Assembly (NCBI GenBank): GCA_029253285.1
Contig: JAQWZU010000044.1
Span: 1 to 43,999 of the forward strand
Source of the DNA: Akkermansiaceae bacterium
GTDB lineage: Bacteria; Verrucomicrobiota; Verrucomicrobiia; Verrucomicrobiales; Akkermansiaceae
Direction of reading: 5' to 3'
Length of the DNA: 43,999 bases
Part shown: in pieces, positions 2,487 through 28,841 of the stretch
Position numbering within the stretch: the stretch's first letter is position 1
How the letters are laid out: each line of letters starts with the position of its first letter
The notes under the pieces: generated by a model
What the model saw: the letters and a program-made list of their open reading frames with translations, nothing else
Databases searched by the model: none
Told to the model about the DNA's origin: nothing
Made by a program: the position numbers and the translations under genes

Positions 2487-5400
2487 ATGCATTTCCGCAC
2501 TTTCCTCTTCCTCGGCTGCCTTTTGGGTCTCATCAGCAATAGTTTAGCTGCTACCGAGTCTCCAAAACCAGTCAGCTACTACACCGACATCCGCCCGATT
2601 TTTGAGGCAAACTGCGTCGGCTGCCACCAACCTTCCAAGAACAAGGGTGGCTACATCATGACCGATTTCGCCCGTCTTCTCGAAGGTGGCGAAGATGATG
2701 TCGCAGTTGTTCCCGGAAAGCCGAAGGAAAGCTATCTCATCGACGAAATCACGCCCGACGCCGAGGGCAAGGCCGAGATGCCTAAGAAGAAGGACCCGCT
2801 TCACGAAGTTGAAATCGCTCTCATCACCCGTTGGATTTCCGAAGGAGCGAAAGACGATACTCCGGAAAACGCCCGTCAGCGTTACGATCAAGACAACCCG
2901 CCGATTTACACCAAGCCGCCCGCCATCACATCAGTTGACTTTTCGCCTGATGGACAACTCCTCGCCGTCGCGGGATTCCACGAAGTCCTCCTTCACAAAG
3001 CCGACGGATCAGGCAGCGTCGCTCGTCTCGTAGGGCTCTCCGAGCGAATTGAGTCCGTTCGCTTTTCACCCGACGGCACCAAGCTCGCCGTCACCGGCGG
3101 TCGTCCCGGTCGCATGGGCGAAGTGCAGGTTTGGGATGTTGCCAAGAAGAGCCTCATCCTCTCCGCGTCCTCCACTTTCGATACCGTTTACGGAGCGGCT
3201 TGGTCACCGGACGGAACCAGAATCTCTTTCGGCGGATCCGACAATACGGTGCGTGCCATCGACGCCAAGACCGGCGAACAAGTCTTCTTTCAGGGCGGAC
3301 ACAACGACTGGGTCTTCGACACTGCATTCAACCCCAAAGGCGACCACGTTGTTTCTGTCAGCCGCGATATGACGGTCAAGCTCACCGAGTTCAAAACCGA
3401 GCGCCTCATCGACAACATCACTTCAATCACTCCCAAAGCTCTCTCCGGTGGCATCAGCTCCGTTGTCAGCCACCCCACCCGCGATGAAATTGTCGTCGGA
3501 GGTGCCGATGGCGTTCCCAAACTCTACCGTATCTTCCGAAACACCGCTCGCAAGATTGGCGACGACGCCAATCTCCTCTTCGAATTCCCTCCCCTTGAAG
3601 GCCGCATCTTCGCTGTCGACATCTCCAAAGACGCCAAACGTATCGCTGCCGGCAGCAGCCTCGATGGCAAAGGTGCAATCCACATTTACGAAGTCGATCC
3701 CAACGCCAAGATCCCAGCCAACGTCGCGGCCGCCATCAAGCAACCCACTCATCAGCGCAACGCCGACATGAAAAAGGCGCTGAAGAAATATTTCGCCGAA
3801 GGACAAAAAACCCTCGCCGCTATTCCAGTCGAAGACAGCGGTATTTATGCCGTCGCTTTCAATCACGACAGCTCCCGCCTCGCCGCTGCCGGCACCGATG
3901 GAAAGATTCGCCTTATCGATACTGCCAATGGCAAACTCATCAAGTCCTTCCTCCCCGTTCAGATCACTCAGGAGCCAGCCCTGGCCAAAACCGGCACCAC
4001 CAAGAAAGCCGCTCTGGATAAACGCAAGCCCCTCGACGCCGAAAAGATCCCCGCCGGACGCACCGTCACCAAGCTCAGCGTAGCGCCAAATAACATCACC
4101 ATCGATACCCCCTATCGCTACGCGCAGATCGTCGTTTCAGCCACTCTCGATTCCGGCGACGTCATCGACGTGACCCGCCTGGTCAAAAAGCAGATCAAGG
4201 GCAAGGGCACCACTGTTTCAAATACCGGCATCGTGCGCAGCGCCATCAACGGCACCAGCGAGATCACCTTTTCCATCGCCGGACAGAGTATCGCCACTCA
4301 AATCAAGACCTCCGGCCAGGAACAGGACACCACTCTATCATGGACCAAGGACGTCAATCCCGTCATCGCCAAGATGGGGTGCAACGCCGGCACCTGCCAC
4401 GGCGCGAAGGATGGCAAGAACGGCTTTAAACTCTCGCTGCGGGGTTACGACCCCATCTACGACGTGCGCGCCTTTACCGACGACATCGCCTCGCGTCGCG
4501 TCAACCTGGCCTCGCCCGACAATAGCCTTATGCTTCTCAAAGCAACCTCCGCCGTCCCACATGAAGGAGGCCAACTCACCACGCCCCACGACGACTACTA
4601 CAAGATCGTCCGCTCTTGGATCGCCAAAGGTGCCAAGCTTGAAAAGAAGACCACCAAGGTCACCAAAATCGACGTCTTCCCCCTCAACCCCGTGGTGCAA
4701 AACATCGGCGCAATGCAACAGATGCGCGTCGTCGCCACTTACCCAAATGGTGAGACCCGCGATGTCACCACCGAGGCCGTCGTCTCCAGCGGAAATGGCG
4801 AAGTCGCCGAAACAGTCAAAGGCTATCCCGCGCTCGTCAAGGTTCTCCGCCGTGGCGAAGCGCCCATCCTCGTCCGTTACGAGGGCGCCTACGCCGCCAC
4901 CACCGTCACCGCAATGGGCGACCGCAGCGGCTTCGTTTGGAACAACCCGCCCAAGTTCAATCAGATCGACTCCCTCGTTTCAGAGAAGTGGTTGCGCATG
5001 AAAACCCTCCCTTCCGAAATTTGCACCGACCTTGATTTCGTCCGCCGCATCTATCTCGACCTCACCGGCCTCCCTCCCACCGCCGCTCAGGTAAAGTCAT
5101 TCCTCTCCGACGTTCGCCACTCGCAAGTCAAACGCGACGCCTTGATCGACTCGCTCATCGGCAACCCGGAGTTTGTGGAATTCTGGACCAACAAGTGGGC
5201 CGACATGCTTCAAGTCAACCGCAAGTTCCTCGCCCCGCAGGGTGCCAAGCTCTTCCGCGAATGGATTCGCAAGGAAGTCGCCAACAACACCCCTTATGAT
5301 GAGTTCGCCCGCAAGGTCATTACCGCCACCGGGTCCAACAAGGACAACCCGGCCGCGTCTTACTACAAGATCCTACGCACTCCGGAAGAGACGATGGAAA

Positions 5401-7580
5401 ACACGACCCACCTCTTCCTCGCCACGCGATTCAATTGCAACAAATGCCACGACCATCCCTTCGAACGCTGGACTCAGGACAACTACTACGAGATGGCTTC
5501 ATTCTTCGCGCATGTCGGATTGAAAAGCGACCCCGCCAGCGGCAAGAGCAAAATCGGCGGCACCGCGGTCGAAGGGGCCAAGCCGCTCTACGAGATTGTT
5601 TATCAAAACAAAAAAGGCGAATTGAAGCACGAGCGCACCGGCGAAGTCATCACGCCCGCCTTCCCCTACCCAGCCAAGCATGCCGGGAAGAAAGAAGCCC
5701 CCCGCCGCGATAAGCTCGCCGGATGGATCACTTCCCCCGACAACCGCTACTTCGCCTCCAGCTACGCCAATCGTATTTGGGGCTACATGATGGGCACCGG
5801 CATCATCGAGCCACTCGACGACATCCGCGCCGGCAATCCTCCCTCTAATCCCGAGCTTCTCGATTGGCTCACGAAACACTTCGTCGAGAGCGGCTTCGAT
5901 GTCCGCGAGTTGATGCGCGTCGTTTGTAAATCCCGCACCTACCAACTCTCCATCGAAACCAACAAGTGGAATAACGACGACACCATCAATTTCTCCCACG
6001 CCAAAGCCCGACGCCTTCCCGCCGAAGTTCTTTACGACTCCATCCACGCCGTCACTGGAGCCAGCAGTCGCTTCCCCGGAGTCCCTGCCGGAACACGCGC
6101 CGCTTCTTTGCCCGACGTCGGCGTCAAGCTCCCCGATGGTTTCCTCTCCAACTTCGGTCGCCCCGTTCGTGAAAGCTCCTGCGAATGCGAACGCAATACC
6201 GACATGCAACTCGGCCCCATCATGGCTCTTCTCAGTGGACCCACTGTCGGCAATGCCATCAACGATCCCAAGAACGCCATTTCCCTGATCGTCAAGGACA
6301 CCAAGGATGATCGCAAGATGATCGAGGAACTCTTCTACCGCATCCTCAACCGCCCACCCGCCGAGGCCGAGGTTAAGGCCACCCTGACCCACTTCAGCGA
6401 AGGCATTGATCAAGACCACGCCACTTTGGAGAAAGCTCTTGCCGAGCACTTGCAAAAACGCGATCCCGCCTTGCCGGCCGCCGAAAAAAAACGCGAAGAC
6501 GACATCAATGCCGCCAGGCTCGCCATCACCAATCGCGAGAAGGAGATTAAGCCCGATATCGACGCGAAGGAAAAACAACGCAAAGAACGCATCGCAAAAC
6601 TCGACGCCGAAAAGAAAGCCTACGACAAAGGCTTTCCAGCCAAGATCGCAGCCTGGGAACAAGACCTCACCGGAGGCGCCTCACCTTGGACTCACTTGCA
6701 AGCAAGCGAGCTCAAGTCGACCAGCGGAAGCAAACTCACCGTGGAAGCCGATCAGACGATCTTCGCTTCCGGTAAGAATGCCAAAACTGAATACTTCGTT
6801 TCCACTCCCACCAAGCTCACCGGCATCACCGCGGTCCGGCTTGAAATGCTCGCCGACGATCGTCTTCCCGGCAAAGGGCCCGGACTCGGAGGCGGTAACT
6901 TCGTACTCGGCGAATTTGAATTAGAAGTCGCCCCCGCCTCCAATCCCACGAAGTTCCAGAAAATCAAATTCAACACCGCCAAGGCCAGTTTTAGTCAGAA
7001 GAGCTACGAAGTGGCCAAAGCCATCGACGGCAAACCCGGTGGCCCCAATGCCGGTTGGGCCATCTCCCCGCAGGTTGGCAAAAACCAAACCGCCATCTTC
7101 GGCATTGGCCAGCCCATCGGACACGACGGAGGCAGCATTCTCCGCTTCACCCTGAAGCAGCACTTCGACGACCGACACCTCATCGGAAAGTTCCGCCTCT
7201 CCATCACCACCAGGACCGGCCCCTTGCCTTTCCTTGTTCCCGATAGTGTGAAGGCTGTTCTTGCCCTCGCTCTGGAAAAGCGAAACGACAAGCAGTCTGC
7301 CGAACTCACCAAGTATTTCCGCGAGAACGATTCCGCGCTCAAGGCTCTCGACGGACAATTGGTAAATGCCAAAAAGCCGCTCCCCACCGACCCCGAGCTG
7401 GTCAAACTTCGCAACCATCTCGCAGCGATGGAAAAAGTTCCGCGTGCCGATGCCCTGCACGATCGCCTACGATACGATCTCGACCTCAGCACCAGGCAAC
7501 TTTCCCAACGCCGACTCACCGGCGCCCAGGATCTCGCTTGGGCTCTCATCAATACACCCGCCTTCCTCTTCAACCGATAA
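2487..7580 (+). CDS. Giant PSCyt1-WD40-Big2-DUF1549-DUF1553 cytochrome protein
   Basis: 1697 residues, secreted (signal peptide about 1-21). In order: a planctomycete cytochrome domain with haem motif CVGCH at 43-47; a WD40-type propeller about 145-500 with repeated F/W-SPDG motifs; a Big2-like domain about 525-605; a second cytochrome-like segment with the unusual spacing CNAGTCH at 632-638; another Big2-like domain about 723-805; DUF1549 from about 823 ending in CNKCHDHPF (haem motif 984-988); DUF1553 from about 1072; a charged coiled-coil region about 1330-1390; a jelly-roll-like domain about 1395-1570; and a typical DUF1553 end (INTPAFLFNR). The family is thought to act in periplasmic oxidative attack on carbohydrates, but no reaction is proven. 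The DUF1501 gene follows after 18 bases, so they are very likely cotranscribed. A weak promoter-like TTGCCA (2413-2418) with TAATTT 16 bases on precedes the gene. Confidence 0.92.
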   Translation: MHFRTFLFLGCLLGLISNSLAATESPKPVSYYTDIRPIFEANCVGCHQPSKNKGGYIMTDFARLLEGGEDDVAVVPGKPKESYLIDEITPDAEGKAEMPKKKDPLHEVEIALITRWISEGAKDDTPENARQRYDQDNPPIYTKPPAITSVDFSPDGQLLAVAGFHEVLLHKADGSGSVARLVGLSERIESVRFSPDGTKLAVTGGRPGRMGEVQVWDVAKKSLILSASSTFDTVYGAAWSPDGTRISFGGSDNTVRAIDAKTGEQVFFQGGHNDWVFDTAFNPKGDHVVSVSRDMTVKLTEFKTERLIDNITSITPKALSGGISSVVSHPTRDEIVVGGADGVPKLYRIFRNTARKIGDDANLLFEFPPLEGRIFAVDISKDAKRIAAGSSLDGKGAIHIYEVDPNAKIPANVAAAIKQPTHQRNADMKKALKKYFAEGQKTLAAIPVEDSGIYAVAFNHDSSRLAAAGTDGKIRLIDTANGKLIKSFLPVQITQEPALAKTGTTKKAALDKRKPLDAEKIPAGRTVTKLSVAPNNITIDTPYRYAQIVVSATLDSGDVIDVTRLVKKQIKGKGTTVSNTGIVRSAINGTSEITFSIAGQSIATQIKTSGQEQDTTLSWTKDVNPVIAKMGCNAGTCHGAKDGKNGFKLSLRGYDPIYDVRAFTDDIASRRVNLASPDNSLMLLKATSAVPHEGGQLTTPHDDYYKIVRSWIAKGAKLEKKTTKVTKIDVFPLNPVVQNIGAMQQMRVVATYPNGETRDVTTEAVVSSGNGEVAETVKGYPALVKVLRRGEAPILVRYEGAYAATTVTAMGDRSGFVWNNPPKFNQIDSLVSEKWLRMKTLPSEICTDLDFVRRIYLDLTGLPPTAAQVKSFLSDVRHSQVKRDALIDSLIGNPEFVEFWTNKWADMLQVNRKFLAPQGAKLFREWIRKEVANNTPYDEFARKVITATGSNKDNPAASYYKILRTPEETMENTTHLFLATRFNCNKCHDHPFERWTQDNYYEMASFFAHVGLKSDPASGKSKIGGTAVEGAKPLYEIVYQNKKGELKHERTGEVITPAFPYPAKHAGKKEAPRRDKLAGWITSPDNRYFASSYANRIWGYMMGTGIIEPLDDIRAGNPPSNPELLDWLTKHFVESGFDVRELMRVVCKSRTYQLSIETNKWNNDDTINFSHAKARRLPAEVLYDSIHAVTGASSRFPGVPAGTRAASLPDVGVKLPDGFLSNFGRPVRESSCECERNTDMQLGPIMALLSGPTVGNAINDPKNAISLIVKDTKDDRKMIEELFYRILNRPPAEAEVKATLTHFSEGIDQDHATLEKALAEHLQKRDPALPAAEKKREDDINAARLAITNREKEIKPDIDAKEKQRKERIAKLDAEKKAYDKGFPAKIAAWEQDLTGGASPWTHLQASELKSTSGSKLTVEADQTIFASGKNAKTEYFVSTPTKLTGITAVRLEMLADDRLPGKGPGLGGGNFVLGEFELEVAPASNPTKFQKIKFNTAKASFSQKSYEVAKAIDGKPGGPNAGWAISPQVGKNQTAIFGIGQPIGHDGGSILRFTLKQHFDDRHLIGKFRLSITTRTGPLPFLVPDSVKAVLALALEKRNDKQSAELTKYFRENDSALKALDGQLVNAKKPLPTDPELVKLRNHLAAMEKVPRADALHDRLRYDLDLSTRQLSQRRLTGAQDLAWALINTPAFLFNR

Positions 7581-7598
7581 CCGATACCCACCAAAGCC

Positions 7599-9068
7599 AT
7601 GTTTAGAATCCCAGGACAAGCCGCCAAAGACGTCTGCGACCCGAACGCCGGAGTCACCCGACGCGATGTATTACGAGTAGGCGGCGCCGGCATGCTCGGC
7701 ATGTCGCTCGGCACGCTCTTCCAGGCCAAAGCCCTCGCCGAAGCCAAGAAGGAAAACCACGCGCCCGGTTGGGGCAAGGCCAAGAGCATCATCATGGTCT
7801 ACCTGCAGGGCGGACCGAGCCACCTTGACCTTTGGGACCCGAAGGAAAACGTGCCCGACAATGTGAAGAGTGCCTTCAAGTCCATCCCCACCAAAATCCC
7901 CGGCACGCACTTCACCGAGATCCTGCCCAAACTCGCCAAGGTTAACGACAAGTTCACCATGATTCGTTCGATGAGTTACACGCCGAACGGGCTCTTCAAC
8001 CACACCGCCGCGATCTATCAAATGATGACCGGCTACACCACCGACAAGGTGAGCCCCTCCGGCCAACTCGAGCCGCCGAGCCCGAAAGACTTCCCCAACT
8101 TCGGTTCCAATCTCGTCAAGATCCGCCCGATGGAGGAACCCATGCTTCCCTTCGTCATGCTCCCCCGCCCGCTACAGGAAAGCAACGTCGTCGGAAAAGG
8201 TGGCGCAGCCGGATTCCTCGGCAAATCATACGATCCCTACACCCTCTATCCCGGTGGCGACGACATGGACATGACCAAGATGACGCGCATCAAGATCGAC
8301 GATCTCCAATTGCGCCCCGACGTCTTTTCGCTGCGTCTCAAACGTCGCGCCAGTCTCCGCAGCGCCATCAACGCGCAGATGCCTACCATCGACAAGGCCG
8401 TCGAGGAATACTCACTCGACAAATACTACGACCGTGCGCTCAACCTCATCGTAAGTGGCCGCGCACGCGAAGCCTTCGCTCTCGAACAAGAAACCGAAAA
8501 GACCCGTGAAGCCTATGGCAAAAATACCTTTGGCGACAGCTGCCTCCTCGCCCGCCGCCTCGTCGAAGCCGGCACCCGCGTCGTCGAAGTGATCTGGCCC
8601 AAGGTCGCCAACTCCGACAACCACTCCTGGGACACTCACAAAGGCCTCACCAAACGCATCAAGGATCAATCCGGCCCCATGCTCGACAACGGCCTCTCCA
8701 CCCTCATCTCCGACCTCGATGACCGCGGCTTACTCGACGAAACCCTCGTCGTCGCCGTCGGTGAATTCGGCCGCAGCCCGCAAAAAGGCGTCAGCACCTC
8801 CGGCAACGGAAACAGCGCCGATGGCCGCGACCATTGGCCCTACTGCTACACCAGCGTCATCGCTGGAGCCGGCATCAAACGCGGCAACGTCCACGGTAAA
8901 TCCGACGCCACCGGCTCAGCCCCCACCGAGGACCCCGTCCACCCAGGCGAGCTCCTCGCCACCATCTACCACGCCTTCGGCATCGACCCTGAAACCATGG
9001 TCATGAACCACCTCAACCAACCGAGGGAATTGGTAAAAGCCAAACCGGTCCTGGATCTCTTTGCCTAG
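7599..9068 (+). CDS. DUF1501 protein, Tat-like leader
   Basis: 489 residues, DUF1501 family, a branch of the alkaline phosphatase/sulfatase fold often paired with DUF1549/DUF1553 cytochrome proteins. The N-terminus carries a [10 protein letters not shown] motif at about residue 25 followed by a Gly/Leu-rich stretch, typical of Tat export of a folded protein. Family landmarks are [15 protein letters not shown] near residue 68, a late VGEFGRSPQ motif, and [10 protein letters not shown] with an Asp-His pair that would suit metal binding in this fold. It lies 18 bases after the giant cytochrome gene and is probably translated from the same mRNA. The substrate is unknown; a hydrolase acting on sugar esters in the periplasm is the usual guess for this family. 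Confidence 0.92.
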
Positions 9069-21710: not shown

Positions 21711-22415
21711 ATGCGCGACGACGTTCAGCAACTGCTTAGCCTTCAGAAAATTGATCAGACGATTCAATCCCTCAACAAGGAACTCGTCAAAATCCCCCAA
21801 CAACAGGAAGCCGCCAAGGAGCGTCTCGCCAACGACACTGCTGCCGTCGCAGCCGCCAAAAAGGCTTATCAGGAAAACGAAGTTGCCATCAAAAATGTCG
21901 AACTCGACATCGGCACCCGCAAGGACACCGTGACCAAGCTGAAGAACCAGCAATTCGAAACCAAGAAAAACGAGGAATACACCCGCCTCGGTAGCGAAGT
22001 TACCCGCTACGAAGAACAAATCGACGAGTTCGAAACCCAGGAGCTTGAACTCATGGAAGTAGCCGACCAGCGAAAGTCCGACATCGCGACAGCCGAAGAG
22101 GCCCTCGGCAAAACCCAGACCCTCGTTGACGAAGAAATCTCCGGTCTTGAAGCCCGGGCCACCCAGTTCAAGGAACAACTCGCCGAAGCTGAAAGTCAAC
22201 GCGCCCAAGCCGCCGACGGACTTGAAGAGGATCTCATGGACACCTACAACCGTCTTTACGACAAACGCGAAGGCGCCGCCGTCGCAGCAGTCACACGCGA
22301 GCGTAGTTGCAAGTCCTGCCACGTTCAGGTCACCCCGGCTACCTACGCCCTCGCACAATCCGGCGCAGCCATCTCGCACTGCGACAACTGCGGAGCGATC
22401 CTTTACCCCGAGTGA
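21711..22415 (+). CDS. Coiled-coil protein with C4 zinc ribbon (CT398/CdsZ-like)
   Basis: 234 residues. Residues about 5-180 are almost wholly charged heptads and predict a long antiparallel coiled coil; the C-terminus is a zinc ribbon with Cys200, Cys203, Cys224 and Cys227 (CKSC...CDNC). This layout is the C4-type zinc ribbon family that includes chlamydial CT398/CdsZ, reported to bind sigma-54 and type III secretion ATPase; in most bacteria its role is unknown. Probably cytosolic, perhaps a nucleic-acid or protein scaffold. It starts 50 bases after the CHASE2-like gene, and its last 13 bases overlap the end of the convergent DUF1731 gene. No secretion genes are near, so I do not transfer the chlamydial function. 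Confidence 0.85.
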   Translation: MRDDVQQLLSLQKIDQTIQSLNKELVKIPQQQEAAKERLANDTAAVAAAKKAYQENEVAIKNVELDIGTRKDTVTKLKNQQFETKKNEEYTRLGSEVTRYEEQIDEFETQELELMEVADQRKSDIATAEEALGKTQTLVDEEISGLEARATQFKEQLAEAESQRAQAADGLEEDLMDTYNRLYDKREGAAVAAVTRERSCKSCHVQVTPATYALAQSGAAISHCDNCGAILYPE

Positions 22416-22669
22416 TTTTTTAAATCAACCAACGCAGCCGAGAAATCCGGCCAGCGAAATTCGAAGCCTTCGTTTTTCAACCTACTGCCTTGAACCCACC
22501 GGCTCTTGAGAATGAGCTCGGTCTCCGTCCCCATGACGAATGTTCCAATCTCGGACGTCCACTTCGGCGCCGGCAATCCAAAAACACGAGCGGCGAGATT
22601 CACCACCACCAAGCCCAGACAAATCAAACCAGCCAGGCGCAAAGCCCACATTTGTATTTCAGGGTCCAT
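22403..22669 (-). pseudogene. Stand-alone DUF1731 domain, remnant of a TIGR01777-type epimerase
   Basis: 88 residues. The last about 55 match the C-terminal DUF1731 of TIGR01777 sugar-epimerase-like proteins: a GLPAP...TETELILKSRWV stretch then a GFEFRWP motif and the final AL..L. In that family this sits after a Rossmann domain of about 220 residues. Here only a 20-residue hydrophobic stretch precedes it, and no Rossmann motif exists in the 100 bases up to the DCC gene, so the gene looks truncated at its 5' side. It does have a start with AGAGG just upstream and could still be made as a small membrane-anchored protein. A 27-codon basic ORF (22757-22674) lies in the gap and may be chance. DCC and TIGR01777 genes often occur together, which fits a decayed operon. 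Confidence 0.6.
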
Positions 22670-22768
22670 TCCTCTAAATCTCCATCATCCGGGCCAATCG
22701 TCCCGATTTACGATCCGGAGTTTTCCTCCGAAAAATTTTCTTAATCCACGTAATCATTGTTTCGGATT

Positions 22769-23254
22769 CTACTTCATCAGTTCACGACGCCATTCGTCCT
22801 GCTCGGTGACACAAAAATTTCCTTCACAAGCCGGAACCTCCATCGTGTGAAGAATCCGCCGAACTTCGCGGTCTTTCTTCCGGAAGAAAATCTTACTCAG
22901 CCCGTGACGATTCGCAGACAGCAAGCGACAGGTCCAAATCGCGACTGGAAGCAGATAAGGCCCGCTCAAGCGCTTCGCGAAGCTCCGGTAATCCGCACAA
23001 CTATAAAGACAGCAAACCCAAGCCTCTGCTCCACGATAAACTTTCTCTTCGTCCGTTCGCACGATCATCTCCCGCGCCGGATCCAAAGTATTCAACCCCG
23101 GAAAAACCAACTCAGCCTCCCCCGCCTGATAGGGAATAAAGTCGACCTCAAAGGCCCGAGACTGCCTGCTAATCCATTCATGGAAGGTGCAACACATTCC
23201 ACAACGTCCGTCGTAAAACACTTCGATTTTTTTGGTGATTAATGGCAGTTTCAT
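22769..23254 (-). CDS. DCC-family thiol-disulfide-type protein (DUF393)
   Basis: 161 residues. The family motif DGRCGMC (Asp15, Cys18, Cys21) follows a beta strand IEVFY, the classic start of DCC/DUF393 proteins, which are predicted to have a thioredoxin-like fold with a CxxC pair. The C-terminus keeps the RFAKR...LLPVAIW pattern typical of the family, with hydrophobic stretches that may contact the membrane. No physiological reaction is established for the family. An inverted repeat at 23270-23289 lies 16 bases before the start, matching the site in front of the GbsR-type regulator, so the gene is likely under its control. An A-rich leader without Shine-Dalgarno sequence precedes the ATG. 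Confidence 0.88.
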   Translation of the reverse strand: MKLPLITKKIEVFYDGRCGMCCTFHEWISRQSRAFEVDFIPYQAGEAELVFPGLNTLDPAREMIVRTDEEKVYRGAEAWVCCLYSCADYRSFAKRLSGPYLLPVAIWTCRLLSANRHGLSKIFFRKKDREVRRILHTMEVPACEGNFCVTEQDEWRRELMK

Positions 23255-23269: not shown

Positions 23270-23289
23270 TTTTCAGTAAGAACTGAAAG
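23270..23289. promoter_or_regulatory. Operator site 2 before DCC gene
   Basis: TTTCAGT (23271-23277), spacer AAGA, ACTGAAA (23282-23288). Together with flanks it matches the site at 23855-23874 at 21 of 26 aligned positions (TTTCAGTA...ACTGAAAGTTTGT), differing mainly in the central three bases. The match runs past the repeat into GTTTGT, so the sites share ancestry or a longer recognition sequence. It is expected to bind the GbsR-type protein encoded next door. Confidence 0.72.
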
Positions 23290-23329
23290 TTTGTTTCCGA
23301 GTTACATTGTGTTTTCTGTTTTACGGGCG

Positions 23330-23851
23330 TTAGCCCAAAAGCTTCATCGCCAACTTAATGGCCTTACCATGTTGCATCGACCCCACACGGTCGCTCATCT
23401 TGGACCCAAAACTCACAAAATCCTCGAGTTCGCTGATCTGCTTATGAAACACCTTCGCATCGCGGTTCTTCATGCTTTTTGTTGCATCCCGACACTTCCG
23501 GAGAGTCTCCAAAGCTGGATCAATCTCCCGACGCTTCCGCTCACGAGTGATTCTCCGGAACATTTCCCAAACATCTTTCTCCGCTTCGAAAAATTCCTTC
23601 CGCTCGCCCTTCTTGGTGATGATTCGAATCAAGCCCCACCCCACAAGGTCCTTGAGATTGGTATGAGCATTTCCCCGACTAATCTCGAGATACTCCATCA
23701 CCTCGTCCGTGCTCATCGCCTCAGCAGCCGTCATGAGAAGAGCATGGATCTGAGCCATCGTGCGGTTGATCCCCCACTGCGCTCCCATGACCCCCCACTG
23801 GGCCACGAATTCCTCGCGAACATCTTCCAAGGCCAAATTCTCTTTGATCAT
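23330..23851 (-). CDS. GbsR/MarR-family transcriptional regulator
   Basis: 173 residues, winged helix-turn-helix of the GbsR branch of MarR proteins. The N-terminal FVAQWGVMGAQWGINRTMAQIHALL segment and the recognition region STDEVMEYLEISRGNAHTNLKDLVGWGLI are the standard pattern of this family, followed by a basic wing (KKGERKEFFEAE) and a helical dimerisation C-terminus. GbsR of Bacillus controls choline/glycine betaine genes; no such genes are present here, so the ligand is unknown. A 20-base perfect inverted repeat lies 3 bases before its ATG, over the predicted -10 region, pointing to autorepression. The same element precedes the DCC gene immediately downstream. Confidence 0.9.
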   Translation of the reverse strand: MIKENLALEDVREEFVAQWGVMGAQWGINRTMAQIHALLMTAAEAMSTDEVMEYLEISRGNAHTNLKDLVGWGLIRIITKKGERKEFFEAEKDVWEMFRRITRERKRREIDPALETLRKCRDATKSMKNRDAKVFHKQISELEDFVSFGSKMSDRVGSMQHGKAIKLAMKLLG

Positions 23852-23854
23852 CTA

Positions 23855-23874
23855 CTTTCAGTATTTACTGAAAG
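23855..23874. promoter_or_regulatory. Operator site 1 before gbsR-type gene
   Basis: Perfect inverted repeat CTTTCAGTA TT TACTGAAAG. Nine-base arms with a two-base centre suit a winged-helix dimer. It lies 3 bases upstream of the regulator start and covers the predicted -10 element, so a bound repressor would block RNA polymerase. Confidence 0.8.
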
Positions 23875-23890
23875 TTTGTGATTTTGTCAA
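23862..23890 (-). promoter_or_regulatory. Promoter of gbsR-type gene
   Basis: On the minus strand a perfect -35 TTGACA (23890-23885) is followed after 17 bases by TAAATA (23867-23862), a poor but AT-rich -10. The start of transcription would fall near 23856, giving a leader of at most a few bases before the ATG at 23851, so the mRNA may be essentially leaderless. The -10 lies inside the inverted repeat. Confidence 0.5.
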
Positions 23891-23949: not shown

Positions 23950-25125
23950 TCAACTCTCGAGCATCTGCCAGCAATACCACTGCATTCTCGGGAGGTGGAA
24001 AGGACCCTTGAATTGGTTCCCTTTTACCGGCGATGACACCCGGCCATCACGATGGAGGTAGCCAAACCATTCTCCATGCTCTTTATCAGAAAAAGTCTTG
24101 TGGGCATACTCGTGAATGTCGCGGTGCCATTGGGCATACTTTTCATCTCCGGTCAGCTGATACGCTAAAAGAGTCGCAATGATGGCCTCGCACTGGGGCC
24201 ACCAGAACTTCATATCGTGCCAATATTCCTGGACCGGTTTGTCGTAGACATCCTTGAAGTAAATAATCCCGCCGTGCTCCTTGTCCCAGCCACGCTTCCA
24301 CATGTAGTCGAGCATGCGACACCCCAGATCGATCAAGCCCGCATCATTTCCGCGGCGCTTTGCTTCGTCCAAAACAAACCAAGCCCCTTCGATGGCATGT
24401 CCGGGATTCAAAGTCCGCTCTTCGATGTGATCAATGACCTCGCCATTCATTCCGATGACTTCCATCACACATTCGATGTCGTCTTTCACGAACTCCCGAA
24501 TCTCTTCGATGAAGTCATCGATCTTTCTCTCCGCCAATCGACATCCCCCATTCGCTACCAAAACCTGCGCCACCTGCAAAAAGATCATCGGAACTCCGAT
24601 CCCTTTACTCAACCGTTCACCGGTTGACTTGGGCTCTCCGGGAGAAACCCGCCCTTCGGCGTAATCCATGCACTTCGCGAAGAGCGCTCGGGCTTCCTCA
24701 AGCCAAGAATCCTCGCCCGATGCCTTGCCATAAGCGGCAAAAGCCATAATCGCGAAGGCTTCCGAAAAATAATACCGCCGCTTCCGCAAGGGCTTCCCTT
24801 CCCGTGTCACCAGAAAAAACATACGCCCGTCTTCATCGAAGCAATGCTCCTTTAAAAACTCCACCCCACTCTTGGCGGCCGACATCCACTCCTCGCGCTT
24901 CTCCACCGTATTACAAAGCGTCGCCAACATCCAAGCAAAGCGACCTTGCAACCAAACCGACTTATCATCGTCGATCAGACTCCCGTCACGATCTCGCATC
25001 GCGAGGTATCCACCGAATTCTTGATCAACAACCTCCGGCAACCAGAATGGCAGAGTGTCATCCATCAAACTCGCCCGATAAAAATCCCGCAACCCACCTA
25101 GCTCTTCTTTCGAATATCCGCTCAT
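23950..25125 (-). CDS. AGE-family N-acylglucosamine 2-epimerase
   Basis: 391 residues, an (alpha/alpha)6-barrel epimerase expected to interconvert ManNAc and GlcNAc. I start at the ATG at 25125, which overlaps the upstream stop as TAATG; an ATG at 25143 would add six residues inside the previous gene. Family landmarks include VWLQGRFAWML, YYFSEAFAIMAF, the NPGHAIEGAWF histidine motif, FWWPQCEAI and the late FHLPRMQWY. As last gene of the operon with a sialic acid lyase and a mutarotase-transporter fusion, it fits the Bacteroides-style route, in which the lyase product ManNAc is epimerised before phosphorylation. Cellobiose 2-epimerases share the fold, but the neighbours favour ManNAc. Confidence 0.88.
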   Translation of the reverse strand: MSGYSKEELGGLRDFYRASLMDDTLPFWLPEVVDQEFGGYLAMRDRDGSLIDDDKSVWLQGRFAWMLATLCNTVEKREEWMSAAKSGVEFLKEHCFDEDGRMFFLVTREGKPLRKRRYYFSEAFAIMAFAAYGKASGEDSWLEEARALFAKCMDYAEGRVSPGEPKSTGERLSKGIGVPMIFLQVAQVLVANGGCRLAERKIDDFIEEIREFVKDDIECVMEVIGMNGEVIDHIEERTLNPGHAIEGAWFVLDEAKRRGNDAGLIDLGCRMLDYMWKRGWDKEHGGIIYFKDVYDKPVQEYWHDMKFWWPQCEAIIATLLAYQLTGDEKYAQWHRDIHEYAHKTFSDKEHGEWFGYLHRDGRVSSPVKGNQFKGPFHLPRMQWYCWQMLES

Positions 25126-27737
25126 TACTTTTTCTGAGTCCAAATGGTCAGCCCGGCAACCTCCTCATCAGTCGCCCGCAGCACGAAGCCCAATACGATT
25201 CCCGCCACCAGAGTCGTCAGGAACCCCACGGCCCCATAGAGCAAAGGCATTAGATCAACCACGCCGGCTTCATTCAGAAAATACACCGTCACGACACTCG
25301 CTACACCACTGATTAAAGCCAGCAGTCCGGCTCGTCCATTTGGCCTCCGTGAAAAGATCCCCAAGGCGAACAAACCTCCCAAGGGCCCTAGCGCAAAACC
25401 AATGAAGCGATTGAACAACATGAAGACGCCATCGGTTCCCATTTTCGCAAGGACACACGACACTCCAATCCCGACAACCCCCAGTGTGATTACGACCCAC
25501 TTCGCCACTTTGAGCCTTCTCTCATCGGAGCTTTCAGGCTTGAGCAAGCGCCCATAGACATCCGTCACGAAAGCCGTCGCTACCGAATTCAAAGAACTCG
25601 AGATCGTCGACTGCGCCGCCGCGAACACTCCCGCGATAATTAAACCCGCTACCCCAACCGGCAGGTTCTGCATGATGAAAAACGGCAGCACACTGTCCGT
25701 CTTCGGAAGCGCCGGGTCCATCAACTCGGGCTTGCTTTGGTAAAAGACATACAAGGCGGTTCCCAGTCCAAAGAAGATCGCCGAGCCCACCAGAACCATC
25801 ACGATATTCATCCAGAGCGACTTCGCCGCCTCCTTCTCGGAGGAAGTCGTTACGTAGCGCTGTACCACATCCTGCCCCGAGGTATACGATGGTAGATTCG
25901 CCAACATAAAGGCCACGAACAACACAAAGCCCGAAGTCGACCCCTTACCAATTGAGAGATCACTCAGGCTCCAACTCGCCGCAATCCCTTTCCCCTGCTC
26001 ACTCATCGCCGAGCCAATCGCCCCCATGCCGCCATCCACTTGCGAAACAACCAACCAAAAACATAAAAGCGCACCCCCAATCAACACAATCGCCTGAATC
26101 GCATCGGTCCAAACCACCGCCTCAATCCCTCCCATCACGGTATAGATCACACATAAAACTCCAATCACGGTGATCGCCGCGTAGATATCGATATTGGTCA
26201 CACTCGAAAGCGCGAGCGCCGGGAGATAAAGCACAATCGCCACCCGTCCGACGTGAAACAACATGAAGGTCACACTCCCGATCACCCGTGTCGCAACGTT
26301 GAAACGTTTTTCCAAATACTCATAAGCGGTCGTAATATTCAGCCGCCGATAAAAGGGCAGGTAAAACATTACGACCAAAGGCACAATAAGTAGAATCGGC
26401 CACTGCCCGATATAGCCATTCCAATTCGTGGCATACGCCGTCCCCGGCACCGCCATAAAGGTGATCGCCGACAACATCGTCGCAAAGATCGATAGCCCGG
26501 CCACCCAGAAGGGAATCTTTTGCCCGCCCCGGAAATAAGCCTCGGTTGACGAAGCTGCTTCCCTCTTCATGAACCAATATCCAATCGCCACCATCCCCAA
26601 AAGATAAACAACAACCACGATCCAATTCACTACGCCAAAACTCATCTTCGTCCCCCCCACTTCCGCGATGAGCACCTGCGGAGATCTCACCCCTGGTTTG
26701 ATCTCACCCGTTGGCAAAATCGCCTTTCCATCCCAAAACACCACCGGAGTCGTCACCGGAGCGAAGGTTCCATCGAGTGGCAAACTCCCCGCCTCGGCCC
26801 AGCGATCCGTCACGATATTGTAGGAGAGAATTGAAGCCGGAAATCCCGGATGCTCCATCCCCTGCCCATTAATCTCCGGTCGCGCGGCAACTTGCTCCCG
26901 CAAAAACTCCACCGGCACTCCTCCCAGCATCAACAAAGAGCTCGCCCCCACCGGCACCGCCATCGACGGAGCTGCCGATCTTGCTTCAGGAAGATCCGCA
27001 AGCTGCTTCCACGTTCCCTCAGCGACATTCAGCTCCCAGCAATCCTTCAAAAAATCCAATCCAAAAATCCGATCCTCTTGCTCCTCTCCACCCTCCGCCA
27101 AATCCCGACCTCCAAAGAGATAAAACTTCCCACCCTTCCCGCCGCTAATGGCATACATCCGCCCACGAGCTTTCTCCGGCCAACCGAGTTCATTCCATTT
27201 TCCCTCACTGAAGCGATACATCATTCGACCAGTCGCTTCTCCATTCGTTCCCGCTCCGACCAAAATATCCTCACCCACCACTCCGGATACCCCTTCGGCA
27301 ATCACCTCCGGCAATGACGCTTTCTTTTCAAAGCCCAATCTCCCCCCCAACATTGTCACCTCTAAAACATCCGCAACACATCCCTCATCATTCTTTCCGC
27401 CCATGAACCAACTGGCCCCACTCTCCAAACTTACCGACATGCCATAGCCTATCTTCGACGGCAACTTTACCTCCGATACCCGCCACTCCCCACCTTTCTC
27501 TAAAGGGAGAACATAAACCGCATCATAGTAAACTTTCTTTCCATCCTCCCACGGTCGTCCCTCCGGAAAATTCGCACCCCCGGCAACCACAAGAAATTCC
27601 TCGCCGCCCTCCTTCACGATCCCGGAGTAGACTCCGGCAAATCCTTCACGATCAGGCAAATCAGGAAGCCGCTCCCAGCTCAGGGCTCCCCACACCGGAG
27701 CCCAAGCAAACAAACAAAGGACGAGTAAGAGTCTCAT
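25125..27737 (-). CDS. Kelch mutarotase (NanM-type) fused to sodium:solute symporter
   Basis: 870 residues. A signal peptide (about 1-17) leads into a Kelch beta-propeller of about 345 residues with NanM/YjhT-like motifs (VAGGANFPEGRPWEDG, MFRFSEG-type blades, FGGRD), which in sialic acid mutarotases interconverts the alpha and beta anomers. From about residue 370 to 855 follows an SSS-family transporter with many membrane helices, including the YFRGGQKIPFWVAGLSIFATMLSA segment and a Ser-rich sodium-site helix (AQSTISSSLNSVATAFVTDVY). Together they suggest a mutarotase tethered outside the membrane to a sodium/sialic acid symporter. The first ATG overlaps the lyase stop (ATGA) and its stop overlaps the epimerase start (TAATG), so all three are coupled. 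Fusions of this kind occur in related phyla; transported sugar is inferred from the operon. Confidence 0.9.
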   Translation of the reverse strand: MRLLLVLCLFAWAPVWGALSWERLPDLPDREGFAGVYSGIVKEGGEEFLVVAGGANFPEGRPWEDGKKVYYDAVYVLPLEKGGEWRVSEVKLPSKIGYGMSVSLESGASWFMGGKNDEGCVADVLEVTMLGGRLGFEKKASLPEVIAEGVSGVVGEDILVGAGTNGEATGRMMYRFSEGKWNELGWPEKARGRMYAISGGKGGKFYLFGGRDLAEGGEEQEDRIFGLDFLKDCWELNVAEGTWKQLADLPEARSAAPSMAVPVGASSLLMLGGVPVEFLREQVAARPEINGQGMEHPGFPASILSYNIVTDRWAEAGSLPLDGTFAPVTTPVVFWDGKAILPTGEIKPGVRSPQVLIAEVGGTKMSFGVVNWIVVVVYLLGMVAIGYWFMKREAASSTEAYFRGGQKIPFWVAGLSIFATMLSAITFMAVPGTAYATNWNGYIGQWPILLIVPLVVMFYLPFYRRLNITTAYEYLEKRFNVATRVIGSVTFMLFHVGRVAIVLYLPALALSSVTNIDIYAAITVIGVLCVIYTVMGGIEAVVWTDAIQAIVLIGGALLCFWLVVSQVDGGMGAIGSAMSEQGKGIAASWSLSDLSIGKGSTSGFVLFVAFMLANLPSYTSGQDVVQRYVTTSSEKEAAKSLWMNIVMVLVGSAIFFGLGTALYVFYQSKPELMDPALPKTDSVLPFFIMQNLPVGVAGLIIAGVFAAAQSTISSSLNSVATAFVTDVYGRLLKPESSDERRLKVAKWVVITLGVVGIGVSCVLAKMGTDGVFMLFNRFIGFALGPLGGLFALGIFSRRPNGRAGLLALISGVASVVTVYFLNEAGVVDLMPLLYGAVGFLTTLVAGIVLGFVLRATDEEVAGLTIWTQKK

Positions 27738-28669
27738 CGGACACTCACTTGGCTATCCTGACCAACCCAGTCAAACCAACCCATCTTTTCCAACTCCACT
27801 CGCAATGCCGCAATCTGTTCCGGACTGGCTGGATCGATGGGACGTCGAACCGGGCCGCAATCGATCCCCACCATCTGCATCATCACCTTCAACGAAGATC
27901 TCCCGCAAGTCCCGAACATCGCTCCGATCATTTCCAGCGCACGGGATTGCCAAAGCCGGGCTTCTTGCAAATCTCCCGACTCCACCGCTTCTCTCACCCG
28001 ATCATAAATCGGCGCGGCATAGTTGTAGGTGCTCCCGACCGCCGAACGAAACCCCTGAGCCACCGACATAAGATAAGCCTCATCCGATCCCGCCAAGAAT
28101 TCCAATCCCGGGCCCACTTTCTCCAACAAAGGAAGATTATGAAGCGACCCTCCATCGGAATACTTGATCCCGCAAAAGGTCGGCAAGCGATCCATCGCCC
28201 GGCCCGTGAACTTCATTGGATCCAAATTCACCCCGGACAAAAAAGGAATGTGATAATAATAAAAGGGCGTCTTTGCGGCCGCCTCAACAATCGGCAACAA
28301 GCCTTCCACCAGCTCTTCTTCGCTGCTCACTTTAAAATACCCGGTCGGCGTCGCCGAGACCGCATCCGCTCCGATCGCTTCTGCATGACCCGCCAACTCA
28401 GCAGAAGCTCGCAGGCTATTGTGCCCTACTTGCACGAAGGTTTTCAAACGTCCCTTGGCCGCTCCAACATAAGCCTCGGCCACAGCCCGCCGCTCATCGT
28501 CAGTCAAAGACATCCCCTCGCCAGTACTCCCCGCGATATAGATCCCCGTGATCCCGTTCGATTCCAAATGATCCACAATCTGCGGAACAATCCCCAAATT
28601 CAAATCGCCCCGATCATCCATCGGCGTCACCACAGCCGCCACCAGCCCACTCATATTTAAAGGATCCAT
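27734..28669 (-). CDS. nanA: N-acetylneuraminate lyase (DHDPS family)
   Basis: 311 residues from the ATG at 28669, preceded by AGGAAG; an upstream TTG at 28675 is less likely. Class I aldolase of the dihydrodipicolinate synthase fold: GSTGE at 47-51, catalytic Tyr139 in a YHIP motif and Schiff-base Lys169 in GIKYSD. The Tyr-x-Ile-Pro-(x)-Leu-Ser-Gly pattern is closer to sialic acid lyases than to DHDPS. It would cleave N-acetylneuraminate into ManNAc and pyruvate in the cytosol. First gene of the operon, with a 4-base overlap with the transporter fusion. No regulator is adjacent; 173 bases separate it from the next minus-strand gene and should hold the promoter. Other keto-acid sugar lyases in the family are the alternative. 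Confidence 0.88.
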   Translation of the reverse strand: MDPLNMSGLVAAVVTPMDDRGDLNLGIVPQIVDHLESNGITGIYIAGSTGEGMSLTDDERRAVAEAYVGAAKGRLKTFVQVGHNSLRASAELAGHAEAIGADAVSATPTGYFKVSSEEELVEGLLPIVEAAAKTPFYYYHIPFLSGVNLDPMKFTGRAMDRLPTFCGIKYSDGGSLHNLPLLEKVGPGLEFLAGSDEAYLMSVAQGFRSAVGSTYNYAAPIYDRVREAVESGDLQEARLWQSRALEMIGAMFGTCGRSSLKVMMQMVGIDCGPVRRPIDPASPEQIAALRVELEKMGWFDWVGQDSQVSVR

Positions 28670-28841
28670 TTTCAAAAGTCTTCCTGAGTATCTACGTCAG
28701 GACAAGATTCGACCTTCAAAAAATGGTCTGCTCTCCCAACCAGTGACCTTAGGGCATGCCACAAATCCCGCACCGTCAAGCCCTCCCAGTTCAATCTGCC
28801 TCGCCCCTCCACCTCAAACAAGCTCCGAAAACCGCCCTCTT

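Follow-up and report, generated by a model that had tools for sequence, protein, structure and literature searches.

What do two closely similar palindromes do on either side of a GbsR-type regulator gene in an Akkermansiaceae bacterium, and which protein reads them? The window analysed here is a whole contig (C89) of 43,999 nt, from an assembly of 4.31 Mb in 224 contigs that is 96.7% complete.

Two palindromes beside a GbsR-type regulator gene

Operator 1 is a perfect 9+2+9 palindrome, CTTTCAGTA-TT-TACTGAAAG, at 23855..23874; its end lies 3 bases from the ATG (23851, minus strand) of the regulator gene (23330..23851, minus strand). Operator 2 (23270..23289) is a near copy, TTTTCAGTA-AG-AACTGAAAG, which differs by one mismatch in the 16-base core and lies between the regulator and the DCC gene, 15 bases upstream of the DCC start (23254). 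Neither site is assigned to a strand. The original prediction had described both repeats exactly at these positions, and two further observations that it made hold: the likeness extends into a GTTTGT flank, which forms part of a 37-nt direct repeat with 76% identity, and no third match occurs in the window at up to three mismatches (shuffled windows lead one to expect 0.06 matches, and 0 of 100 contained two). Across the organism's own genome, operators 1 and 2 were the only matches at up to two mismatches; eight more sites with three mismatches carry no meaning, because the reversed pattern gave 41 matches at up to three. A chance origin of the palindromes is ruled out by the window shuffles, by this genome scan and by the recurrence of the sites at orthologous loci.

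The regulator, a protein of 173 aa, had been assigned to the GbsR type within the MarR superfamily, and both sequence profile and fold support that assignment. It scored 27 bits against the Pfam family MarR_2 (PF12802), exactly at the cut-off of 27 for this MarR-type winged helix. The closest solved relative is Mj223 (1KU9), with a profile E value of 8.5e-22 over positions 8-156 of 173; a predicted structure of mean pLDDT 91 returned the same entry at rank 1 in Foldseek (TM 0.61/0.69), and 1KU9 served as the structural template for the GbsR family in PMC6207618. The protein falls outside the CudC equivalog (NF047500; 51 bits against a cut-off of 218), and its Pfam matches, to MarR and other winged-helix families with none to MerR, place it outside the LitR/CarH-type photoreceptors. 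In an alignment of 40 orthologues the wing-helix core is invariant and Cys120 is kept in at least 90%; with regard to a possible aromatic-cage inducer site for choline/betaine, F88, W95 and F98 are conserved in this alignment.

Far from being absent at orthologous loci, the outcome that the original prediction had named as damaging to it, the palindrome recurs almost throughout. A search of the genome collection provided 54 named orthologous gbsR loci, all titled as members of the Verrucomicrobiota, with their genes assigned by tblastn; 53 had enough upstream sequence for a test of site 1, which was found before the gbsR orthologue in 48 of the 53 at up to two mismatches and in 52 at up to three. 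At the same 53 loci the reversed pattern never came closer than six mismatches, and of 300 shuffled palindromes none matched any locus at up to two mismatches or more than 8 loci at up to three. The first in-frame start codon lies 0-4 nt past the 18-bp core in 52/52 loci, and 2-4 nt past it in 50. A second site follows within 150 nt after gbsR in 30/52 loci at up to two mismatches and in 39/52 at up to three.

Beyond these loci, 107 of 286 genomes of the class contained a regulator match at E ≤1e-20, and the site stood upstream at up to three mismatches in 29 of 30 further loci outside the 54, of which ten were fetched (L260-L270 without L262) and 20 were hand-picked down the match table; L279 is the exception. 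Within the family, the motif was found in 56 of 99 genomes with a GbsR match versus 2 of 18 without one (Fisher 5e-4), and in one of those two, a genome 69% complete, the site precedes what by eye is a DCC-like gene (L201). In 11 genomes (seven of the Rubritalea group, three of genus g7 and one of g13) the site is carried by a DCC operon whose contig is not the one with gbsR.

The same sites thus stand beside the same genes across a bacterial class, and they are therefore very likely the docking sites of the repressor. Judged by comparison of these loci, site 1 is, with high confidence, the putative operator of the adjoining regulator, and the DCC gene very probably falls under the same control; autoregulation and control of the DCC protein, both of which had been predicted, are borne out to that extent. 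Overall, the best explanation, and one that we hold with considerable confidence, is a GbsR-family autorepressor that acts as a dimeric winged-helix protein on an 18-20-bp palindrome.

Recognition helix and operator type

Among 131 distinct regulator proteins, two recognition helices predominate, with other helices in 2 of the 131, and each is accompanied by its own form of the palindrome. For the 94 proteins with an SRGN helix the site was nearer to TTTCAG-N6-CTGAAA in 90 and tied in four; for the 35 with an ARSN helix it was nearer to TTTCTG-N6-CAGAAA in 30, nearer to the TTTCAG type in one and tied in four. A site within one mismatch of the better operator type was present for 79/94 SRGN and 35/35 ARSN proteins, and the best of four control half-sites came that close for only 4/94 and 2/35. 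L253, L292 and L293 had no recognisable site. Two operator specificities, TTTCAG and TTTCTG, thus appear by computation to track the recognition helix.

In a tree of 86 proteins, a single branch, supported at 100/100, sets the SRGN proteins apart from the rest, which points to essentially one change of specificity that has long been held. Since the correlation between helix and operator is mostly one deep split, its Fisher value overstates the independence of the cases. The exceptions on the ARSN side with the TTTCAG type are L296 and L295 (the latter with an ARSA helix), hybrid operators occur at L308, L315, L324 and L329 on the ARSN side and at L080 on the SRGN side, and mixed cases (L295, L296 and L315) branch off early on the ARSN side. 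One genome (G215) has both regulator types, and each of them stands next to the operator form that matches it (L276 and L302). In the ARSN-type genomes the strict pattern gave 17 sites in 13/25 genomes, mostly at the regulator's own gene. As a separate observation, two genomes of genus g3 have an ARSN-type regulator followed by an NmrA-like epimerase, and another ARSN genome has a TTTCTG site upstream of a similar NmrA-like gene (L308, L312 and L333 together, with L308 by eye).

Promoter geometry, the DCC operon and rival explanations

A putative -35 hexamer of the regulator promoter, TTGACA, lies at 23885..23890 (minus strand), and a putative -10 region, TAAATACT, weak by itself, lies inside operator 1 at 23860..23867 (minus strand). 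The window offers TAAATA at a spacing of 17 (3/6 to TATAAT) or AATACT at a spacing of 19 (4/6). A clean TTGACA-N17-TAAATA promoter was dropped, as its -10 element matches only three of six positions of TATAAT. Upstream of site 1, 28/52 loci have a hexamer that agrees with TTGACA in at least five of six positions (shuffled flanks: mean 9.6, maximum 17), and in those 28 loci an NNTACT hexamer of the palindrome stands 16-19 nt from the -35 box, with two to five of six matches to TATAAT. A promoter scan of the window reported no promoter at site 1; given this and the weak -10 match, the -35 box is the firm part of the promoter.

At site 2 of linked loci, where the DCC gene follows gbsR, the corresponding hexamer occurs in 6/40 loci, no excess over shuffled sequence (mean 5.4, maximum 13), and the best -35 match at site 2 of the window is 3/6. 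At linked loci no separate promoter is therefore visible for site 2, and we infer either read-through transcription with a roadblock or a second docking site. At DCC operons unlinked to gbsR, a hexamer with at least five of six matches lies at -15/-16 in 7/11 (shuffled mean 0.12, maximum 2). At loci L097-L111, an extra half-site-like NTTCAG follows directly past site 2 in 13/15, an arrangement that would suit the binding of a second dimer.

We propose that a dimeric GbsR-family winged-helix repressor would bind the 18-20-bp palindrome. The promoter at the regulator gene would be near-leaderless, with TTGACA as its -35 box and with its -10 region under operator 1. As the operator would lie over the -10 region, with its core 0-4 nt before the start codon in relatives, a bound repressor should exclude RNA polymerase, with autorepression as the result; repression by such a steric block is the reading that we favour, with some confidence. 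The second copy would control the DCC operon. Where that operon lies apart from gbsR (the Rubritalea group is an example), the site below the -35 box would be its promoter-operator; where it lies behind gbsR, as in the window, site 2 would most likely affect read-through transcription, either as a roadblock or as a second docking site, with roadblock action itself put at just short of an even chance.

The DCC gene (22769..23254, minus strand) encodes a DCC1-like thiol-disulfide oxidoreductase family protein of 161 aa (PF04134, 47.1 bits against a cut-off of 27.8). Behind it lies an 88-aa ORF (22403..22669, minus strand), a likely deletion fusion by its residue-level likeness to two operon proteins: residues 2-24 resemble the start of an operon membrane protein, and residues 25-84 match residues 244-303, the DUF1731 tail, of a short-chain dehydrogenase (SDR). 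Relatives (Rubritalea profundi L115; L082) have a fuller operon of gbsR, small membrane proteins, DCC, an MBOAT_2 acyltransferase and a full SDR with its DUF1731 tail. The 'DUF1731 protein' of the window thus seems to be a fusion, by deletion, of two operon genes that are otherwise lost, and the DCC/DUF1731 unit proposed by the original prediction is rejected as a native pair. Remnants of the SDR tail occur in separate genomes of the genus (window 22403-22669, minus strand; L069, 7989-8521; L074, 7735-7866); the recurrent retention of this tail may reflect chance, a protected operon end or a working remnant, and an assembly error may lie behind the deletion in any single genome bin. Between the two genes is a 27-aa basic ORF, MITWIKKIFRRKTPDRKSGRLARMMEI (22674..22757, minus strand), with similar ORFs in L069 and L074; beyond these, a pattern search of the 54 named loci gave only unrelated stretches (L073 and L076). 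Elsewhere the window contains a sialic-acid-type cluster (23950-28675, minus strand) of a GlcNAc 2-epimerase family protein, an 870-aa fusion of NANM/Kelch with a sodium:solute symporter and a DHDPS-family protein, and, at 2487-9068 (plus strand), a 1697-aa protein with PSCyt1, WD40, PSCyt2 and PSD1 followed by a DUF1501 protein.

The palindromes alone do not name a protein, and in relatives the site stands before many genes, so that they might be operators of another, unlinked regulator for which gbsR is merely one target. We regard this as very improbable, given that site and GbsR protein co-occur (56/99 versus 2/18), that recognition helix and operator change together and that throughout the class the regulator's own gene carries the site. 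The change of operator with the protein helix would be unexpected if the repeats acted in RNA, as a hairpin or terminator. A scan does report a terminator-like element at 23854-23875 on the plus strand, but no plausible plus-strand gene was seen to end there, the repeat has no Rfam match, and most of the palindrome would be untranscribed if the promoter call is right; a role in RNA is the least credible of the readings considered here.

Repression also has to be weighed against activation at some or all sites, for which the TetR_C-ABC1 kinase loci L136 and L138 speak, with the site upstream of the TTGACA box rather than downstream. At gbsR and at the unlinked DCC operons of the Rubritalea group, however, the site lies at -10 distance from the -35 box, and the characterized proteins GbsR, OpcR, OpuAR, CydE and CioR are reported as repressors (PMC7396694, PMC6207618, PMC11837568); we consider activation unlikely. 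Nor do we think it probable, if by a little less of a margin than for activation, that site 2 of the window is a decaying relic whose operon has been deleted down to the DCC gene and the fusion ORF. The operon is indeed truncated here, two other target genes of this genome (polyprenyl synthase and photolyase) lack sites, and site 2 has a core mismatch and no -35 box; yet a single core mismatch is common among sites elsewhere, the DCC gene is intact, and L065, with a regulator 93% identical, also retains a site with one mismatch.

Regulon targets, known systems and possible function

Targets were tallied in 39 genomes, 12 of the Rubritalea profundi genus and 27 of the window's own genus, where 82 sites at up to one mismatch compare with 14 for the reversed pattern. 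As about 14 chance sites are expected from that control, single assignments may be wrong, and it is recurrence that carries weight. Each target class was checked against Pfam in at least one example and the other members were assigned by eye or by tblastn; the SRPBCC examples score under their Pfam cut-offs. The 39 sites of the Rubritalea group comprise the regulator (5), the DCC operon (8), SRPBCC-like proteins (7), polyprenyl synthase (5), an SDR-photolyase operon (3), a membrane-protein pair (4), TetR_C_23 with an ABC1 kinase (3), DUF2071 (2) and two unassigned sites; the 43 of the window's own genus comprise the regulator locus (34), polyprenyl synthase (5), a sigma-70 factor (2) and the membrane-protein pair (2). 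The conserved A/T-rich palindromes at these targets are candidate inverted-repeat operators.

Recurring target genes account for 80 of the 82 sites (L128 and L192 are the other two), and these families are other than the betaine-synthesis and Opu-transport neighbours of the GbsR/OpcR/OpuAR group. Taken as a whole, the original prediction is supported in part. Among the matches listed outside the two tallied genera, L204, L207, L210 and L212 have no recurring target, nor does L211, a site with two mismatches in a genome of the window's genus (G040) and thus beyond the tally. In three genomes a site stands before the gene for a sigma-70 factor of some 285 aa (L194, L197 and L213, the last with two mismatches); with such a factor among the targets, the regulon may feed a second tier. 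In the window's genome the polyprenyl synthase has no site (best match near its start, six mismatches), nor has the photolyase homologue, for which the scan covered the whole assembly and not just the flanks; in this genome the recognisable regulon is reduced to its own locus.

Photolyase operons with a site were found in three genomes (G022, G087 and G041; L126, L178 and L188) of the Rubritalea profundi genus. Photolyase as a general target was rejected: the photolyase family was found in 79/117 genomes, and no site at up to three mismatches occurred in 30/30 fetched family photolyase loci (L216-L245, the window's genome included), which span about 1500 nt either side of the match and could miss distant sites, since that of L126 lies about 2.2 kb before the photolyase.

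As described in PMC7396694, GbsR and OpcR of Bacillus subtilis share with the present system the protein family, an A/T-rich palindromic operator, effects at their own genes and repression, and in OpcR the operator overlaps a promoter element, there the -35. They differ in controlling choline and osmoprotectant genes rather than a membrane and isoprenoid gene set, and the GbsR half-sites are separated by 4 bp and placed downstream from the transcription start (a roadblock), whereas here they are 2 bp apart and in the -10 region of the regulator's own promoter (PMC7396694). The cytochrome bd operon repressors CydE and CioR resemble the present regulator in being encoded by the first gene of the operon that they repress (PMC6207618, PMC11837568), but no cytochrome bd gene was identified at the sites examined here. 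The grouping in PMC6207618 sorts GbsR-type proteins by betaine-synthesis, Opu-uptake, cytochrome bd and mixed transporter neighbourhoods and leaves 73 of 179 with neighbourhoods that give no readable role; the verrucomicrobial group fits none of the neighbourhoods named there.

CrtR of Corynebacterium glutamicum is likewise a MarR-type repressor of isoprenoid genes; its crt genes are light-inducible, and in vitro its binding to DNA is disturbed by isoprenoid pyrophosphates (PMC5401885, PMC6739363). It differs in its TTAA-centred binding region and carotenoid operon, and the likeness drawn here is one of description. Part-likeness extends to the class II LitR regulon of Pseudomonas (PMC9758184), where a gene of the photolyase/cryptochrome family and a short-chain dehydrogenase are in the light-induced set under LitR, and to the MerR/ChrR blue-light response of Vibrio cholerae (PMC5241685), with the photolyase/cryptochrome family in its light-induced set. 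Those regulators are of the LitR/MerR type or ChrR, not MarR/GbsR, and the light link here is one of gene content; the parallel with LitR and CrtR is an analogy at that level.

On a reading of the family names, the targets belong to metabolism of the membrane-lipid, isoprenoid and quinone-like kinds, to which three genomes add a photolyase. That the regulon has a photo-oxidative or membrane-lipid role is a tentative suggestion. The 30 photolyase loci that show no site within the stretch fetched speak against the parallel with light-induced systems, and the open-access literature searched yielded no light experiments in Verrucomicrobia, nothing that combines Verrucomicrobia with photolyase, carotenoid and light induction, and nothing on DUF1731 in an operon context. 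Equally speculative is a class-wide photo-oxidative and membrane-protection regulon of the Verrucomicrobiae, a counterpart of LitR/ChrR under a GbsR-type autorepressor with near-leaderless promoter-operators, split into TTTCAG and TTTCTG forms with a matching helix switch; if true, it would bring photolyase, isoprenoid synthesis, lipid-binding, acyltransferase and DCC membrane operon under one regulator.

The mechanism proposed is that of an ordinary repressor, and in the open-access literature searched we found no description of the operator, the gene set or the specificity split. A place is given to uncharacterized membrane genes, namely DCC, MBOAT_2, TIGR01777/DUF1731 and small membrane families that no Pfam entry matches with confidence. 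One large conserved GbsR-type group now has an operator of defined form, a list of targets and two naturally occurring specificity classes, through which its role and inducer become directly testable in cultured relatives.
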